Source: a virus
DNA length: 35,161 bases
Direction: 5' to 3' (one strand)
IMG/VR virus record: IMGVR_UViG_3300025133_000350
Span: 1-35,161 of that record
The position numbers and the translations under genes were made by a program. This document shows, in pieces, positions 4,812-35,161 of the stretch (position 1 is its first letter; each line of letters starts with the position of its first letter). The notes under the pieces were generated by a model. That model was not told where the DNA came from. It saw only the letters and a program-made list of their open reading frames with translations, and did no database searches.

Positions 4812-5163
4812 TACTAATCTCCTTAACTTTTTTTGCCAGTTGTATTTTATCCATGAAGAGAATCAAATCTTCAGCTCGAATTGTTATCAGCCAAGGCTTT
4901 CTGTTTCTGCGGTGCGCAACATAGGGAACAGTGTTGTCGGCGCAGTCTCTGACAGCCTGATCGATTGCGTTATGGATGTTGAGGCGTTCGACACGTTTGA
5001 TCTCTGGGTGTGTTCCGGCAATCCCATCCACCACATCTGCGTTTCCAGATAGCCCAGAAAACTGTTGTCCACGCCTAGCGTTCAATCCAAACGTATCATT
5101 CAACCACTTTGCAAACTCGCGTTCGCCAGCCGCGCCCTTTTGTCTCGAATTAATTGCCAACAC
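4798..5163 (-). CDS. PDDEXK-type nuclease, putative Holliday junction resolvase-like
   Basis: The 121-aa protein has the layout of the small phage PDDEXK endonucleases often annotated as Holliday junction resolvase-like: an N-terminal glycine-containing helix with E (KGAAGEREFAKWL, about 9-21), the metal-binding D in GNADVV (about 40-45), and the E-x-K pair in PEIKRVERL (about 53-61). A basic patch HRRNRKPWLI follows. It probably resolves branched replication or recombination intermediates before packaging. It lies at the distal end of the replication operon, overlapping neighbours by 14 bp on both sides. Confidence 0.75.
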   Translation of the reverse strand: MLAINSRQKGAAGEREFAKWLNDTFGLNARRGQQFSGLSGNADVVDGIAGTHPEIKRVERLNIHNAIDQAVRDCADNTVPYVAHRRNRKPWLITIRAEDLILFMDKIQLAKKVKEISNGND

Positions 5164-5539
5164 TTACCCCCGCCGCCATTAGTGCGCGCTCTGCTGTTCT
5201 TTCTATATCTCGGTTACCACAATGTGCAGCAAGAACACGAACCCGGTTCATCTGTTCGATTAACATTTCTTCGTTTCTTTTGTGCGAACGCACTTCATTA
5301 ATCTCTGGAAACTGAACACGATCATCGACCACTGGTACTGTGCAGTGGACAAGTTTGTAGTGTGTTACTTTCCCTCTGCGAAAAGTTTCTATCACATACC
5401 CCTGTTTACGCATATCACTCATCCGTTTGTGGGGGTTGTCAACAGAAGCTTCCTTCCTAAGTTGCACCAAAGTGTGCCAAGTTCCATCTTTCATGACCTC
5501 ATATAGTTTTTTACAATCTTCGTTGTATAAAAATGTCAT
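5150..5539 (-). CDS. winged-helix DNA-binding protein, 129 aa
   Basis: Residues about 8-65 read as a winged helix: a first helix (KKLYEVMKDG), then HTLVQLRKEA, a recognition helix in a segment with PHKRMSDMRKQGY, and a beta-wing (FRRGKVTHYKLV). Phages often carry this type beside replication genes, where it may act as an initiation or regulatory factor. The C-terminal 50 residues are charged helix. ATG 5539 is chosen (GGAAAG upstream, matches the domain boundary); a longer in-frame extension to 5617 lies in the neighbouring gene. Overlaps by 4 bp the gene ending at 5536. Confidence 0.7.
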   Translation of the reverse strand: MTFLYNEDCKKLYEVMKDGTWHTLVQLRKEASVDNPHKRMSDMRKQGYVIETFRRGKVTHYKLVHCTVPVVDDRVQFPEINEVRSHKRNEEMLIEQMNRVRVLAAHCGNRDIERTAERALMAAGVSVGN

Positions 5540-5883
5540 TTTACTTTCCGTTTTATTTGTTTTCTTCGTGCATCCATGAGCCGCCGTTTTGAACACTGAC
5601 CATTCCACTGTTCCCACTCTGGGAATAACAAGTCTCCACCACTACGCTTCATCCACCCCGCTCTTAACATAGCCTGACCAAGCCCCGCAACGCCAACAAC
5701 CTCGTCAAACTCTTCTGGCGTTATGTCGGAAATAATTCCATCAGGCGTGTGGTCACCCACCCATGACCACACCCTGACCATCATGCCAACAACGGTAAAT
5801 TTATCTACTTCGAGAATTCTTGCAACTTGTACCGTCCGTGGTGATTCGTGCAAGTTGTGTCTAACAGGTATCCACGTTGCCAT
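5536..5883 (-). CDS. DnaD/DnaT-like replication protein, 115 aa
   Basis: The pattern WIPVRHNLHESPRTVQVARI, then VVGMMVRVWSWVGDHTPDG, then VVGVAGLGQAMLRAGWM matches the N-terminal winged-helix domain found in many short phage replication-initiation or helicase-loading proteins. The basic tail (KRRLMDARRKQIKRKVK) may bind DNA. ATG 5883 is chosen because GGAGAGG lies 5 nt upstream; a longer frame reaches 5919 inside the primase gene. It sits directly after the primase gene, consistent with a role in replisome loading. Confidence 0.65.
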   Translation of the reverse strand: MATWIPVRHNLHESPRTVQVARILEVDKFTVVGMMVRVWSWVGDHTPDGIISDITPEEFDEVVGVAGLGQAMLRAGWMKRSGGDLLFPEWEQWNGQCSKRRLMDARRKQIKRKVK

Positions 5884-5884
5884 A

Positions 5885-6751
5885 TTAACCTCTCCAATAC
5901 TTTGTTTTATCCATGACACACATCACGGCTTCTTTCGTTGCGCCTTGGGACACCCACTCTCTCACATCCTTGTGTCGTGGAGGCTTGATAACCCTTACAC
6001 TTGGCGCAACTAACAGTAATCCTGTTGCCAATCTCCTTGCGCCATCTAATCCTGCCCCATCCCGATCAGCGCAGATGACTATATCTGGTGCAGGGTTAAA
6101 CTTTAATAACAATTGCCTAATCATTGACACATGACCCAAGCAAGATGGTCTACCGATTGCATCAAATCCCAATGATAAAACAGCAGCCGTATCAGTTGGA
6201 CCTTCACAAATCATCAAGGCATCCTGTTTGCCAATACCTGTTGGGACAAACAGCCCTGAGCGACTACTCTTAACAGTAGATTTACTATCGTTGTCATGTC
6301 GCAATCTTATTCCCACTACATCGCCAGTTGCATTAACCATTGGGAAACCATACGCTCTTCTGTGTTGGTTTGCCCTTACGCAGCCAAGACGCTCCAATGA
6401 GGCGGGAGTCACTCCTAATTGGTTGGCGTACTCAGCCACTTGTGCATCAGTAGTAAATTGCTTCCACCGATTCATTATTGCACTTGGGTTAATTGTCCTC
6501 CTTTGCTGTTGGGGCTTTACAACCAAGCCCCCCCCAACAGAAGTTCCGGCATGCAGATAGCCGCCATTACCCAAAACAATTGAGCTGGGCATGCGCATGC
6601 AACAGTTAACAGATTCGTCCGCAGCCCTTGTACACCAATCATGCTTCTTGCAGATGTGACACGGTCTACTTTTTGAAACCCTGACCCACACTATGGGTTC
6701 TTTGTTTTGAAAAGATGGGTTTGCTGCTTCTTTCCAATCAAACATCGCCAT
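5885..6751 (-). CDS. TOPRIM-domain primase
   Basis: Residues about 31-51 contain C31-x2-C34-x5-C40 and C50-C51, a zinc-ribbon-like N-terminus. A TOPRIM fold follows: LMICEGPTDTAAVLSLG holds the catalytic Glu (about 183), and VICADRDGAGLDGARR the DxD pair (about 229 and 231). This is the layout of compact phage DnaG-type primases, which synthesise RNA primers at the fork. It lacks a fused helicase domain; the helicase is the separate SF2 gene upstream, or is recruited from the host. ATG 6751 is chosen (GGA 6 nt upstream); it overlaps the preceding small gene by 14 bp. Confidence 0.8.
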   Translation of the reverse strand: MAMFDWKEAANPSFQNKEPIVWVRVSKSRPCHICKKHDWCTRAADESVNCCMRMPSSIVLGNGGYLHAGTSVGGGLVVKPQQQRRTINPSAIMNRWKQFTTDAQVAEYANQLGVTPASLERLGCVRANQHRRAYGFPMVNATGDVVGIRLRHDNDSKSTVKSSRSGLFVPTGIGKQDALMICEGPTDTAAVLSLGFDAIGRPSCLGHVSMIRQLLLKFNPAPDIVICADRDGAGLDGARRLATGLLLVAPSVRVIKPPRHKDVREWVSQGATKEAVMCVMDKTKYWRG

Positions 6752-6929
6752 CAATATCCAGTAGTGCCAAGAGTGCCTTTGCTTCTGCACCAGTTTTGGC
6801 GGGGGGCAAATCATTCATGATTAATAAAAAGATCTGCGGGTCTGTTGGCGGACACATATCTAGCCATTGTCGCAGTAACTCTTGCTTTCTTTTCATTCGT
6901 TCTTGTTTAATTGCGTCGCTTTTTTTCAT
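6738..6929 (-). CDS. hypothetical protein, 63 aa
   Basis: Short charged protein starting MKKSDAIKQERMKRKQELL, followed by a hydrophobic-helical C-terminal half. It lies between helicase and primase with AGAGAGG 7 nt before ATG 6929, and its 3' end overlaps the primase gene. No family recognised; a small primase or helicase accessory factor is possible by position. Confidence 0.6.
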   Translation of the reverse strand: MKKSDAIKQERMKRKQELLRQWLDMCPPTDPQIFLLIMNDLPPAKTGAEAKALLALLDIDGDV

Positions 6930-6930
6930 A

Positions 6931-8631
6931 TTAAAACCTCTCTATATTTTGTTTACTATCAACACGCTTCCAACCATTGGCAGCGACAGCATCAATGAGT
7001 TTACTCGCTTCGTCTCTACTTATGTCGGGGGAGTAGCCAAATCTTCGTAACAATTTGGCCTGTTTGTAAGTTGCTTTCCCAGACTTAGCCCTTTCTATTA
7101 ATCTACCTATCAAAGCCGACCCTTCTGAGGATGTCATACTTACAGCATCGGCACTATCGACCCCAAATCTTTTCAATCCGGCGACAAGTCGATCAGAACA
7201 TGGTCTGTTCGATGCCCCAAAACCCTGCCGTTCTACTGGCTTCATTCCGATTGCGCCAAATGGATCGGTGGTTCTTGAACTCCAATCAACCCTTGCCCTT
7301 AATTTCTTCCGCCTAACCTGTTCATCTAACTCACGTTGCTTTGCCGCTTTGATTTTTTCTTCTAATTCTTCACGAGCTTGTTTTAGGGCTTCATCAACAT
7401 CTTTGGGCTGGGTAGTGTCCGACAATATCTCTCTTGCAACAGTTATCTCTTCATCACTATATGTACCGCCCAAAAGGTTTGCAGTGTGCATAAGTTTGTG
7501 CCGTCCAGCGTTGCCAACAAAATCGACAACCTCAAGTGTAGGCTTACCTGAATCCGCTATTGCAGTGCGCCTATCTTCCGACGTTTCTAATCCATCAACC
7601 ACATGGGGCAATGTTCTTGTGCCACGCCCTACCATTTGGGCAAACAAAGCCCTTGACTTGGTTGGTCTTGCTAGCACAATTACTTCGAGAGTAGGCTCGT
7701 CAAAGCCCTCTGTGAAGCAGCCAACATTTACAAGTATCCTAGTTTTACCCTCCGCAAACCTTCGCAAAGTTTCTCTGCGACTATCTTTGGGTGTCTTGCC
7801 ACACACCCACTCAGCAGAACCAAATTTGTGCCGATTGAATATCTCGCACAATCTTTCCGCATGTGCAACACTTGCTGCGAACACCAAGGTCTTGCGATCA
7901 CCAATAATTTCGAGGGTTGGTGTTGCGATGCCGTGCAGATTCTTTTCGTACTCCATCACTGCTGCGAGTTGCTTGCCATTAAGATCCCCGGCTGTTGTTT
8001 TAATGCCAGAATAATCTAGGCTGTTAACTACAACCGACCTCTGCACTATTGGGACAAGCCAGCCGTCAGCGATAGCATCATGAATCTTATATTCGTAGGC
8101 TACCGAATCGAATATCATGCCCAACGCCTTCTCGTCTGCACGATCAGGCGTTGCTGTCACGCCTAATATCTTTACGTTTGGGTTATTCTGTTTGTAGTAG
8201 TCTATGATTCGTCTATAACTCTTGGCAGGAGCGTGATGAGCCTCATCTATTATTACTAATGAGAATTGCTTAGGGTCAAATTTCAAAAGCCTGTTACTAG
8301 CATTCTGTGTCTGCACACTTGATACAACCACCTTTGATCTATTAAAAAACCCCTCGTCTGCACGATAGTCAGCCATCTCGATTGATGGTTTTGTTCCTGT
8401 AATTACCTCTACCTTTGCAGCAGCTTGCCAGATCAATTCTTCTCGATGTGCAAGGATCAGTATCCGACCAGATATTTCTCTATCAACCAAGTGAACAAAC
8501 ACAACAGTCTTGCCTGTACCTGTTGGGAGAACAAGTAGTTGCGCGTCATTATCATTCCATCCATCATTGATGTGGGTAATCGCCTTTTCTTGATACGGTC
8601 TAAGGTTCAACGTAATTCTTCCATCAAGCAT
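6931..8631 (-). CDS. superfamily 2 DNA/RNA helicase (type III restriction ResIII/UvsW-like)
   Basis: The 566-aa protein has the SF2 motifs in order: Q-like RPYQEKAI (11-18), Walker A PTGTGKT (36-42), DEAH (129-132), TATP (159-162), a motif V region VGCFTEGFDEP (303-313) and motif VI QMVGRGTR (332-339). Residues about 415-450 form a charged coiled coil, and a C-terminal module with KATYKQAKLLRRFGYSPDIS resembles the small domain seen at the ends of other phage and bacterial DNA-processing proteins. It probably unwinds or remodels replication and recombination intermediates. The start overlaps the methyltransferase 3' end by 25 bp. Confidence 0.9.
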   Translation of the reverse strand: MLDGRITLNLRPYQEKAITHINDGWNDNDAQLLVLPTGTGKTVVFVHLVDREISGRILILAHREELIWQAAAKVEVITGTKPSIEMADYRADEGFFNRSKVVVSSVQTQNASNRLLKFDPKQFSLVIIDEAHHAPAKSYRRIIDYYKQNNPNVKILGVTATPDRADEKALGMIFDSVAYEYKIHDAIADGWLVPIVQRSVVVNSLDYSGIKTTAGDLNGKQLAAVMEYEKNLHGIATPTLEIIGDRKTLVFAASVAHAERLCEIFNRHKFGSAEWVCGKTPKDSRRETLRRFAEGKTRILVNVGCFTEGFDEPTLEVIVLARPTKSRALFAQMVGRGTRTLPHVVDGLETSEDRRTAIADSGKPTLEVVDFVGNAGRHKLMHTANLLGGTYSDEEITVAREILSDTTQPKDVDEALKQAREELEEKIKAAKQRELDEQVRRKKLRARVDWSSRTTDPFGAIGMKPVERQGFGASNRPCSDRLVAGLKRFGVDSADAVSMTSSEGSALIGRLIERAKSGKATYKQAKLLRRFGYSPDISRDEASKLIDAVAANGWKRVDSKQNIERF

Positions 8632-10071: not shown

Positions 10072-10080
10072 CTATCCTTT
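10072..10080 (-). promoter_or_regulatory. ribosome binding site shared by two nested start codons
   Basis: AAAGGATAG on the minus strand contains the stop codon of the ParB-like gene (TAG) and an AAGGA Shine-Dalgarno core. It is followed by AA and then ATGTG, in which ATG 10069 opens the +1-frame ORF and GTG 10067 opens the methyltransferase. Core-to-start spacing is 5 nt for ATG and 7 nt for GTG. At the other three AAAGGATAG leaders it is 7-8 nt, so GTG has the more typical spacing. Confidence 0.75.
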
Positions 10081-10944
10081 CATTTCTTCTGGCAAGCACT
10101 TCCATAGTTGTTGGGAGAGCCACCCACGATGAGAACATTCTGAACAACCATCGCCGTCGCAGTAGACACACACCGCGTAAGGCATAGCCGTTTTCTTTAA
10201 CGCATTAATAATGTTTAAGCAGTCGGCAACAAAAGCACCAGTGGCTACATCGGCAGCAACGGCATCCATTCTTGATTCTGATTTTTCGCCCCAGCTTTTC
10301 AGAGCATGGGCATGGGTCATAAGATCTGTAATCTCATCTGTAATGCTTTCCCATTTTCTACAAAGGTGTTCAGGGATTACATTTCCAACCGCATCCTTCT
10401 GAACAGGAGGCATCGGAGGATTCTTAATAAGTACCTCCTTGGGGCTTCCTATGTTACTTGTTTCTACTTCTCGACCACTCTTGGTCACTCTTAATGTAGG
10501 TTGACTTGCAGACTCTGCAAGTGAGTTTCTATTTGTTCGTACTAATTCGTGAGATACGCCAACGTGACTTGCGATCATGGAGTCGCTCCACTCTGGGTGA
10601 ATTTTTAATCCCATCACAACAGCCCTACGTTTGTCTGCATTTGTCCTTCTAATGCCATGTGTTTGGTTCGCTGCAATAGCATGCCACTGAGCGTCCTCAC
10701 GAGTCCCCTCACGGACATCTGCGTTGATCTTGGACATCAACGCCTTGCGACTAGCATGCCATCTGTGGAAGCCGTCAGCAAGCCACATGTCAACGCCATC
10801 ATTGAACACAACAATAGGCGGCAACTCTTTTGCCGACTCGTATGCAGCAGCATAATCTGATACTGCGGTGACATCTATTGACACTCTTGACTGAGTGTCA
10901 CCATTAATTTTAATATCTTCTATAAATATATCTTTAATAGTCAT
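10072..10944 (-). CDS. ParB/Spo0J-like domain protein with C-terminal cysteine cluster
   Basis: Residues about 10-70 form a ParB/sulfiredoxin-type domain: LPPIVVFNDGVDMWLADGFH, with R61 completing the DGFHR motif (57-61). An HTH-like segment follows (WSDSMIASHVGVSHELVRTN, about 125-145), and the C-terminus carries a CVYCDGDGCSEC cluster typical of a DnaJ-type or zinc-ribbon site. Phage homologues of this layout act as DNA-binding or nuclease-like regulators rather than plasmid partition proteins. ATG 10944 is chosen (GGAG 7 nt upstream). Its stop codon lies inside the ribosome binding site of the methyltransferase, implying coupled translation. Confidence 0.75.
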   Translation of the reverse strand: MTIKDIFIEDIKINGDTQSRVSIDVTAVSDYAAAYESAKELPPIVVFNDGVDMWLADGFHRWHASRKALMSKINADVREGTREDAQWHAIAANQTHGIRRTNADKRRAVVMGLKIHPEWSDSMIASHVGVSHELVRTNRNSLAESASQPTLRVTKSGREVETSNIGSPKEVLIKNPPMPPVQKDAVGNVIPEHLCRKWESITDEITDLMTHAHALKSWGEKSESRMDAVAADVATGAFVADCLNIINALKKTAMPYAVCVYCDGDGCSECSHRGWLSQQLWKCLPEEMKG

Positions 10945-11001
10945 AATTAACTCCATGAAAAAAGTCGATGACAACCAACGAGGGCTGCCACCGACCAGAG
11001 G

Positions 11002-16749: not shown

Positions 16750-18422
16750 GCTAAAGCCCATGTAGGTAAAGGGTTGTTGTTTGGGATCATAGATATGGAT
16801 ACATCTGCACACATGTGCGCTTGCAACCCACCTCCCGGACAGGGCTGACAATCCGCATGGTTCAAATCTGGCTCACTTAAACAATGTTGACACGGATACA
16901 AGGGATTGGGTATACCGTTTGTATCCAAATGCTCATTTGGTCCACAACAATTGCAAGGATCGCAATCATCGCAATCAACGCATCCTGTATCCCAATCCGT
17001 ATTACAACAATCGTCGCAGTAATTGCATCTACACCACCAAATCGCCGGAGGGCCATAATACTCGCCGTCAACCTCTGGCGTGTTTGGGTGTTCAAAAAGC
17101 CACTCTGTACTTCCGCAATATGAACTTGGAACCATACAAGTATGCACTGTCCCCTCGCCGGGAGTGTGTCCCGGAAGTGTTGGTCCACCAAATATGGCTG
17201 TCGGGTGCAACGATACCAACGCCCCATCAGTTCTAACCGTCGAATCAAATGATGTAAGTGGGGGACAAGAACATCCATGAGCCGAAAGTTCAGGCTGACC
17301 GTCTTGAGTATCATTATCGCAATTCGAGTTACAAATACTTGTAGCACCCCACCACACGCCGCGATATGCTAGTGCCGCCGCAGAGCCGCCACCAGCAGCC
17401 AGATAACAATCATCGTCGTCAAATGGCTGAATACAGTCAAAACCGTCACCTTGATGCCCCATCACAGACCTTGCTTGTTCTGTAAGACCGCGTATCTCTA
17501 ATTGCCACGCACTATCACAACTTCCGGGATCTGTCTTAATTGTCATATATGCTTCAATATGATGAGGCTTAAAACTGCCACATGACCAACATGCGTAAGA
17601 AACATCATCAAACGAATCACAAGCACTACTGACCATGCCGGGGCAGGGTGGGGATGCTGGCACTTGATCTACACAAAAAGCTTGTCCGTCACTACCGCCA
17701 TGTTCCATCGGAGAATGAAGTCCCCAAACATCTAGCGATGATGCAAATCCATCATTCATCGGAACGCACGGATTTTCAGGATCACAGGCTGCGGTCGGCC
17801 CGCCGCAAACAACCGCCTCTGTTGGGTCGCCCACATGCTCACAATCGCAATCTGGATATGTATCACTTTCCTCATGGCAGCAACAGTTGGAACAGTCGCA
17901 AGAACTTGTCCAATACCCACCCCAAAAACAACGACAAATTGTTTTTGATGTCCCTTCTCCAGAATCCCCCCCACCACTGCAATAGGGTTTATCTGATCCC
18001 GCCCTCGTAAGCCTTACATGGTGTGTAGTTTCTGCATAAGAAACTGGATCTTGAACACCGCCAGTGATGTTTGTCCATCCAGATGGAGCGCCAATTACTG
18101 GTGTCTCATTATTTTGCATCGCTCCGTCGCACGGCTGTGTTAATGGTGGGTCGCCACTACAACAGGTTTGTCCCTGTATTACGAATTCTTTTAGTGTGAA
18201 TGTTATATCAATATATTTCTTACAATTGTGTCCATCCCCACACGCTGGTGCGCCCTGACAGTCACAATCCTGCCATTCTCCACAGTTGTCCCCATCCCCA
18301 TCGCAGGGCTGGCATTCTCCGCGACATCCACCACACTTCCCGCGATAAGCGTTTTCGGCTAAATCGCCGGGGAAACAGTTTTCTTTGTGCTTACAATATC
18401 TATCGTGTGTAAAACCGGGCAT
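16746..18422 (-). CDS. extremely cysteine-rich tail-region protein, 558 aa
   Basis: About 57 of 558 residues are cysteine (roughly 10 percent), in dense groups such as KCGGCRGECQPCDGDGDNC, SSCDCSNCCCH, CRCNYCDDCC and CVDCDDCDPCNCCG. The protein is also rich in G, D and P and contains a less cysteine-dense central part (about 230-420). No signal peptide, membrane segment or known family. Gene order (after the tape measure and two tail proteins, before fibres) suggests an external virion component, perhaps disulfide-bonded after release or metal-binding. ATG 18422 follows the upstream stop by two bases without a clear Shine-Dalgarno, so coupled translation is likely. Confidence 0.7.
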   Translation of the reverse strand: MPGFTHDRYCKHKENCFPGDLAENAYRGKCGGCRGECQPCDGDGDNCGEWQDCDCQGAPACGDGHNCKKYIDITFTLKEFVIQGQTCCSGDPPLTQPCDGAMQNNETPVIGAPSGWTNITGGVQDPVSYAETTHHVRLTRAGSDKPYCSGGGDSGEGTSKTICRCFWGGYWTSSCDCSNCCCHEESDTYPDCDCEHVGDPTEAVVCGGPTAACDPENPCVPMNDGFASSLDVWGLHSPMEHGGSDGQAFCVDQVPASPPCPGMVSSACDSFDDVSYACWSCGSFKPHHIEAYMTIKTDPGSCDSAWQLEIRGLTEQARSVMGHQGDGFDCIQPFDDDDCYLAAGGGSAAALAYRGVWWGATSICNSNCDNDTQDGQPELSAHGCSCPPLTSFDSTVRTDGALVSLHPTAIFGGPTLPGHTPGEGTVHTCMVPSSYCGSTEWLFEHPNTPEVDGEYYGPPAIWWCRCNYCDDCCNTDWDTGCVDCDDCDPCNCCGPNEHLDTNGIPNPLYPCQHCLSEPDLNHADCQPCPGGGLQAHMCADVSISMIPNNNPLPTWALA

Positions 18423-34346: not shown

Positions 34347-34748
34347 TTATTCTGCCTGAGTCCCCTCATCTTCCATATTCTCATCAAAAAATGTATCTAA
34401 TGGAATAGGGTCGATATATGGGGTTGTTGGTCTGCTGGCTCTGCCAATCGAATCTGTCCCTTCACCAGCTCTCCAGATTCTCATTTTAGTCTGTTTTGTG
34501 TAAATAGCCGGAAGCCTGTACGTCAATACCCGATCTAGCCAAGTGTATAGACCCGAACGGCTAGGATCATATTTTCCTGAATTCTCATTTATCAGAATCC
34601 ACCCTTCCGCAACTATTTCGTCGTAATCCCATTTAGGGAAACGCTTGCACTTGACAGACCAAGAAGCCCATCGGTTTAGGCAATCCAGAAGTTCAGCCTG
34701 ATCTAACACGGTATATCCACCACATCTCCATCGGCAGAAGCGTACCAA
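34347..34748 (-). CDS. sigma-70 region 2-like protein, putative late regulator
   Basis: Residues about 40-85 (WDYDEIVAEGWILINENSGK, then YDPSRSGLYTWLDRVLTYRL) follow the sigma-70 region 2 pattern (DYDDLVQEGWIAL...YDPSRG-F-TYL...R-IRNRL). No region 4 is present, and the protein is only 133 aa, so it may be a minimal sigma-like or accessory factor binding host RNA polymerase. It is the first gene of the late operon, beside the iteron-like control region. Start TTG 34748 has AAGGA 5 nt upstream; GTG 34709 (120 aa) is an alternative. Confidence 0.6.
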   Translation of the reverse strand: MVRFCRWRCGGYTVLDQAELLDCLNRWASWSVKCKRFPKWDYDEIVAEGWILINENSGKYDPSRSGLYTWLDRVLTYRLPAIYTKQTKMRIWRAGEGTDSIGRASRPTTPYIDPIPLDTFFDENMEDEGTQAE

Positions 34749-34750
34749 AT

Positions 34751-34858
34751 TCTTCCTTTTTTGGTTTTGCTTATTTAGTTATTAGTTATTTATTATCTAT
34801 TACTTATTCTTTATGGATTATTAATAATTACTATTATCTACTGTTATGTTATGTTATG
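34751..34858. other. AT-rich stretch with TTATG tandem repeats
   Basis: Almost entirely A/T, with short repeats such as TTAGTTATTAGTTATTTATT and three tandem TTATG (34844-34858). It lies between the first late gene and 42-bp module A. An easily melted region next to repeated protein sites is typical of replication origins; it could equally contain the late promoter. A GATAAT hexamer on the minus strand within it resembles a -10 box but lacks a matching -35. Confidence 0.6.
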
Positions 34859-34859
34859 T

Positions 34860-34901
34860 AGTCCGCAAAATGTCCGAACGAATGCGGACAAAATGCGGAC
34901 A
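34860..34901. repeat. four-site operator/iteron module A (F-F-R-R)
   Basis: Octamers related to TGTCCGCA lie at 34860-34867 (first base A) and 34871-34878 (TGTCCGAA), and its complement TGCGGACA at 34883-34890 and 34894-34901. Start-to-start spacings are 11, 12 and 11 bp, so all sites face the same side of the helix with dyad symmetry. The same arrangement recurs at 35034-35075. Confidence 0.9.
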
Positions 34902-34903
34902 TT

Positions 34904-34928
34904 TTGACTTGCAGAGTTTGCAAGTCAA
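34904..34928. other. perfect 9-bp inverted repeat
   Basis: TTGACTTGC (34904-34912), 7-nt loop AGAGTTT, GCAAGTCAA (34920-34928). It begins 2 bp after module A. It could be an operator for a dimeric regulator or a hairpin of an origin. No T-run follows, so it is not an intrinsic terminator. Confidence 0.85.
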
Positions 34929-35161
34929 CCGCACTGGCGTTACCAAGAATAGCCATTTCTAACAAAACGCCCAAAACCCAAACCACCCCATAAGATTTCT
35001 GGCGAATACGCTTTTAGTAGTAAACACAAAGTGTGTCCGCAACCTGTCCGCAACGATGCGGACAAAAAGCGGACAAAAGTAAACTTTTGATTAGCCAAAA
35101 AATTTGATCTGGCAAGCCCACCGATCTAGCAAAAATCAATCAACGTATTCGAAAATGTGGC
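34929..35161. repeat. non-coding right edge with module B (35034-35075) and 16-bp palindrome
   Basis: Module B repeats the layout of module A: TGTCCGCA at 35034-35041 and 35045-35052, TGCGGACA at 35057-35064 and AGCGGACA at 35068-35075, spacings 11, 12, 11. CAAAAGT-AA-ACTTTTG (35074-35089) is a 16-bp perfect palindrome touching its end. The rest (34929-35030 and 35090-35161) shows no gene or strong promoter. The molecule continues beyond or joins position 1; the two edges share no identical terminal sequence. Confidence 0.85.

Follow-up and report, generated by a model that had tools for sequence, protein, structure and literature searches.

The window, the 35,161-nucleotide stretch of viral DNA analysed here, carries two compact arrays of octamers close to one end and a cluster of replication genes towards the other. 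The features discussed below are as follows.

34860–34901: proximal module, octamers in the order forward-forward-reverse-reverse (F-F-R-R; AGTCCGCA, TGTCCGAA, TGCGGACA, TGCGGACA), predicted initiator-binding sites
35034–35075: distal module, F-F-R-R octamers (TGTCCGCA, TGTCCGCA, TGCGGACA, AGCGGACA)
34836–34860, minus strand: pentamer track TACAT AACAT AACAT AACAG TAGAT, directly after the last half-site GGAC
34771–34860: AT-rich stretch (GC 15.6%), predicted DNA unwinding element
34904–34928: perfect 10-bp inverted repeat, TTGACTTGCA-GAGTT-TGCAAGTCAA, beside the proximal module
5539–5883, minus strand: predicted cognate initiator, a phrog_2509 homologue of 115 aa (the DnaD/T-like ORF at 5536)
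5885–6814, minus strand: TOPRIM primase, directly upstream of the initiator gene
6931–8631, minus strand: DNA helicase (phrog_16), in the initiator gene cluster

Modules and adjoining DNA

Each module has two forward sites followed by two reverse ones, starting at 34860, 34871, 34883 and 34894 in the proximal copy and at 35034, 35045, 35057 and 35068 in the distal copy. Our coordinates reproduce the two F-F-R-R clusters of a preliminary description, eight sites with 11/12/11 start-to-start spacing in both and an offset of 174 bp between them. The modules are 83% identical over 41 nt, and TGTCCGCA is exact at five of the eight sites, with one mismatch at the other three. That such regularity goes beyond chance, as had been proposed, holds for the arrangement, though the octamer alone shows no significant enrichment (36 matches in the window with at most one mismatch, versus 27 ± 5 expected). 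With any 5-mer allowed in the pattern w-N6-w-N8..10-w'-N6-w', only two places in the window fit, and these are the modules; the pattern arose in 0 of 300 dinucleotide-preserving shuffles of the window. Apart from the two modules, the window holds no clusters of GTCCG/CGGAC.

The pentamer track, which follows GGAC immediately, is the counterpart of the (AAGAG)n found in origins embedded in rep genes. It is the sole case in the record, on both strands, of an in-register run of at least four NA[GC]A[GT] pentamers; as the consensus was composed after viewing these sequences, shuffle counts for the track are descriptive. In no other 90 bp of the record does GC content fall as low as in the AT-rich stretch; the runner-up among separate sites has 24.4%. 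In two relatives, L288 and L291, the hairpin arms are changed in a compensatory way and still pair (GACTAGCA...TGCTAGTC). All six reading frames of the region are interrupted by stop codons, and a search near the modules found no further rep-like stretch. The preliminary description had included neither the track, the AT-rich stretch and the hairpin nor the module's usual place inside the initiator gene. GC skew, which it had suggested as a check, follows the direction of the genes and does not point cleanly to an origin.

Only part of the origin region is visible, since the record, a linear contig, stops 86 bp after the distal module. The window and its near-identical relative L003 stop at the identical base (35161 in the window), and all five contigs that reach this region (the window, L003, L283, L288 and L291) break off 17 to 260 bp after the proximal module; these ends reflect either an assembly break or a real end. 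Tandem repeats occur at the start of the record (1–96; GGGACACT and 29-bp repeats) and at 17800–18300 of a further relative, L298 (CTCCCAG-type and ACGCCACGGT).

The modules in other viruses and genomes

Scanning viral contigs with the DNA pattern returned L003 (99.9%), L004, L006, L007 and L005, and a stricter pattern added nothing. The match in L005 is an array of TGTCCGGA repeats. L004, L006 and L007 share little or no other DNA similarity with the window, and in each the module lies inside a phrog_2509 gene, that is, one for a replication initiation protein. Protein searches reached the phages epsilon15, BUCT711, phiPSA1 and Carin1, which likewise carry TGTCCGCA octamer modules inside rep; in epsilon15 these stand at +54 and +333 of the gene, and no origin is annotated at them in its record.

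Relatives were fetched by protein, and 179 rep copies were grouped into 33 clusters. The sites lie inside the rep gene in all 25 clusters of the TGTCCG clade, mostly as two modules at about +54 and +333 to +396, with the four sites not intact in every module. Thirteen of these 25 clusters were found by protein search alone, blind to the module; some of the others were fetched via the module and are not independent. The distal module of the window is the counterpart of the module at about +54 in most of these relatives. Six further clusters (Rac, TL-2011b, PAN70, VW-6S, CBW and Olaya) carry GTAACG/CGTTAC arrays at the matching place in rep. On the protein tree, the two site types are separated by a single change with support of 99/95, and the window protein falls on the TGTCCG side. 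As the sister clade has GTAACG arrays instead, site and initiator clade change together; comparison thus shows, at the level of sequence, that the modules belong to phrog_2509 initiators and that the site sequence changes with the initiator clade.

A scan of 84,980 genomes, made with the DNA pattern alone, gave a more mixed picture. Of the matches listed, 17 of 117 adjoin a rep match, and L207, where the locus edge cuts the gene, is one more, since its ORF reads like the Rep linker. Most proteobacterial and planctomycete TGTCCGC-type matches listed are in or beside a rep gene; the other matches listed are mostly multi-copy Bacteroidota repeats or GC-rich and chance-like. Two TGTCCG F-F-R-R modules, L144 2834 (Ralstonia) and L176 4251 (Rugamonas), have no recognisable Rep nearby. 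Separately, in L108, L109, L114, L115 and many more Bacteroidota genomes (for example RUG13410) another dyad, GTCCGCTTGTTGTCCGCTTTTAAAGCGGACAACAAGCGGACATC, with an 11-bp period, recurs dozens of times and has no connection with Rep.

Far from being absent from related phages, the outcome that the preliminary description had named as counting against it, the octamer and its spacing recur both in distant phages and in L283, L288 and L291. In these last three, which have about 65–70% DNA identity to the window, the proximal module, the pentamers and the AT-rich stretch occupy the matching intergenic place; the modules of L288 and L291 keep three of the four sites, the fourth arm being missing.

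The track, too, recurs. In rep-embedded origins, the last GGAC of the proximal module is typically followed by CAGAG AAGAG AAGAG AAGAG AAGA, and AGA accounts for 70 of 75 arginine codons within the track but for 58 of 653 elsewhere in the rep genes. This bias argues that the DNA sequence is kept and not the protein alone, so that by comparison the track is under selection at the DNA level. L288 and L291 read TACAT AACAG TACAG TACAT. The fit is weaker in L154 and L283 (two of five pentamers), bare in L007, and the period is six in Rac and TL-2011b.

The shortened initiator and its neighbours

The preliminary description had put forward four candidate binders for the octamers. The DnaD/T-like protein stands, as its homologues carry the modules inside their own genes. 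The other three, a Cro-like HTH protein (3177), a second winged-helix protein (5150) and a ParB-like protein (10072), show no link to the modules. The second winged-helix protein is small (5150–5539, weak HTH_39) and starts at the initiator stop codon.

The initiator is about 36% identical to epsilon15 Rep and consists of the winged-helix DNA-binding domain only. It lacks the C-terminal domain and has no module in its gene, stopping where the module would begin in other rep genes; nothing similar to the missing C-terminal DnaT domain was found anywhere in the record. As a protein query in viral contigs, the initiator gave no close relative, and the helicase query then yielded L298, which has a winged-helix-only initiator of 118 aa, also without a module in the gene. 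A short initiator of matching kind makes a sequencing error in the window unlikely. Because the octamers are kept, the protein has presumably retained its octamer specificity. It is encoded about 29 kb from the modules on the contig, and the modules are intergenic.

An AlphaFold2 model of the initiator (mean pLDDT 84.4, pTM 0.69) consists of a winged helix and, at its C-terminal end, a long helix. Compared with the PDB, it matches many winged helices and a few unrelated folds at a Z of about 4 to 5.6, which is background level; among the weak matches over much of the domain are the plasmid initiators 5kbj, 4pql, 4pt7 and 4pta and the DnaD N-domain 2vn2 (Z 4.2 to 5.1). Foldseek with the model gave no match at E up to 0.001, and the modelled likeness to plasmid initiators and the DnaD N-domain is suggestive only.

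Among the neighbours, the TOPRIM primase and the DNA helicase are possible partners at the origin. The gene beside the modules (34347–34703) is conserved in L283, L288 and L291, and its small product resembles an isolated sigma-70 region 2 (Pfam match in L291, E 4.8e-5); a viral scan with this gene gave no new origin.

A probable origin and its alternatives

Module homology, the match of site to initiator clade, the pentamer track and the AT-rich stretch together make a replication origin very probable. We therefore favour an iteron-type origin of the phage in which the modules serve as initiator-binding sites, with the phrog_2509 homologue encoded at 5539–5883 as the protein that very probably binds them. 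Comparison further shows that in this virus group the predicted origin lies outside the shortened initiator gene; the short initiator of L298 and the intergenic location in L283, L288 and L291 agree with an origin that has apparently moved out of the gene. Iteron-type phage origins are themselves of a known kind. What appears new here is the unlinked position with a minimal initiator, together with the five-base track.

The preliminary description had offered two functions, an origin or an operator of divergent promoters; the former is strongly supported and the latter is not our primary reading. As an operator, the modules would let the shortened winged-helix protein repress or activate the promoter of the leftward late operon (34347–34703 onward) and would have no origin function. 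The modules are indeed intergenic and upstream of that operon, the protein has lost the remainder of the initiator, and one weak -35/-10 match overlaps the hairpin. However, promoter matches are at chance (1 versus 1.3 expected), as are those of a terminator scan, and the proximal module in relatives sits inside the gene, about 330–400 bp past its start and not at a promoter. The pentamer track and the AT-rich stretch, which adjoin the module here as they do in rep-embedded origins, would be needless for an operator. We regard this alternative as unlikely.

Still less probable, and by our reckoning very much so, is that the nested dyads act as an RNA or single-stranded DNA hairpin, such as a terminator, riboregulator or single-strand initiation site. 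The sequence of each module does allow such folding, with nested stems of -12.8 and -15.2 kcal/mol as DNA (z -5.8 and -7.1), yet the GTCCG core itself is conserved at each site from cluster to cluster, mismatches are often not mirrored at the partner site, L288 and L291 do without the fourth arm, the direct-repeat spacing is fixed at 11 bp, and no T-run terminator was called at the modules. A centromere-like partition site is likewise very unlikely: a ParB-like protein is encoded (10072–10974; phrog_1033, E 2e-13), but its ParB_N Pfam match is weak (E 0.004), the proteins scanned included no identifiable ParA, the modules track phrog_2509 initiators, and parS palindromes are built differently.

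If the modules are an origin, as we favour, the winged-helix initiator would bind the octamers as a cooperative assembly. The 11-bp spacing would place the sites on one face of the helix, and the F-F-R-R order suggests two dimers or a tetramer across the dyad. Binding at the proximal module may strain the neighbouring DNA and thereby open the pentamer track and AT-rich stretch (34771–34860), with the opened strand held on the pentamers by the initiator or by partner molecules. The primase (5885–6814) and helicase (6931–8631) would then be recruited and forks would begin at the origin, with lambda O, pSK41 Rep and DnaA as models for this scheme. The distal module could assist through looping or by controlling the availability of the initiator.

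The closest parallel is the epsilon15-type origin, which shares the TGTCCGCA octamer, the F-F-R-R order, 11/12–13/11 spacing, two modules, a period-5 track after GGAC beside the proximal module and a homologous winged-helix initiator of the TGTCCG clade. It differs in that epsilon15 and all other clusters have their modules as coding sequence inside rep, whereas those of the window are intergenic, and in that the usual initiator has a C-terminal domain after a linker, whereas that of the window is the N-terminal domain only. The sister clade of Rac ydaU (CP2, PAN70, VW-6S, Olaya and TL-2011b) has a homologous initiator and, at the matching place in the gene, an array of short sites, direct and inverted, with a purine track after it, but there the site is the hexamer GTAACG/CGTTAC and not TGTCCGCA. 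An active origin, oriJ, is known in Rac (PMC3945230). Neither a description of this type of origin nor an assay of replication from it was found in the literature searched, which omits most subscription journals.

More distant systems offer partial parallels. We know of no pentamer track at the lambda origin, and lambda iterons are inverted repeats of about 19 bp that each bind an O dimer, whereas the sites of the window are single octamers in F-F-R-R order. The initiator sites of lambda do lie inside the O gene, and the A+T-rich stretch next to them opens when the initiator binds (PMC5043065). In the RepA_N plasmid initiator pSK41 Rep, an N-terminal winged helix of ~120 aa binds four Rep boxes inside rep, and the linker encoded by the origin is dispensable for the protein (PMC5703833). 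The fold match of the window initiator to this group is weak (Z 4.5 to 5.1, among other winged helices), and no Pfam or PDB-sequence match to a RepA_N domain was obtained. Unlike pSK41 Rep, the window initiator has no C-terminal domain and its origin is outside the gene; as that domain is the primase recruiter in pSK41 Rep, recruitment must differ here.

The track also invites comparison with the DnaA boxes and DnaA-trios of bacterial oriC and with the DnaD recognition element, where a short-period repeat likewise adjoins initiator boxes in the unwinding region (PMC10201434). The period is five bases here versus three there, and the window has a different initiator without an AAA+ domain. More tentatively than for the origin itself, and with considerable doubt, we suggest that the track might play in phages the part of the DnaA-trio. 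The repeat ([ACT]A[GC]A[GT])n would then be a single-strand code of five-base period, anchored where the last initiator half-site ends, on which a non-AAA+ winged-helix initiator or a partner would hold the opened strand. Were this so, the code would be common to a large group of phages and prophages of the epsilon15 and Rac ydaU type, and the group represented by the window would show it working outside coding DNA.

Many temperate phages have their origin inside the initiator gene, which makes it hard to separate DNA signal from protein sequence. The group described here separates them: the octamers, the track and the AT-rich DNA persist as non-coding sequence, and the protein shrinks to its DNA-binding domain. 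This separation would reveal which parts are DNA signals and provides a testable minimal origin for epsilon15- and Rac-like phages, and it suggests that a short single-strand repeat code resembling the DnaA-trio may exist outside DnaA systems.
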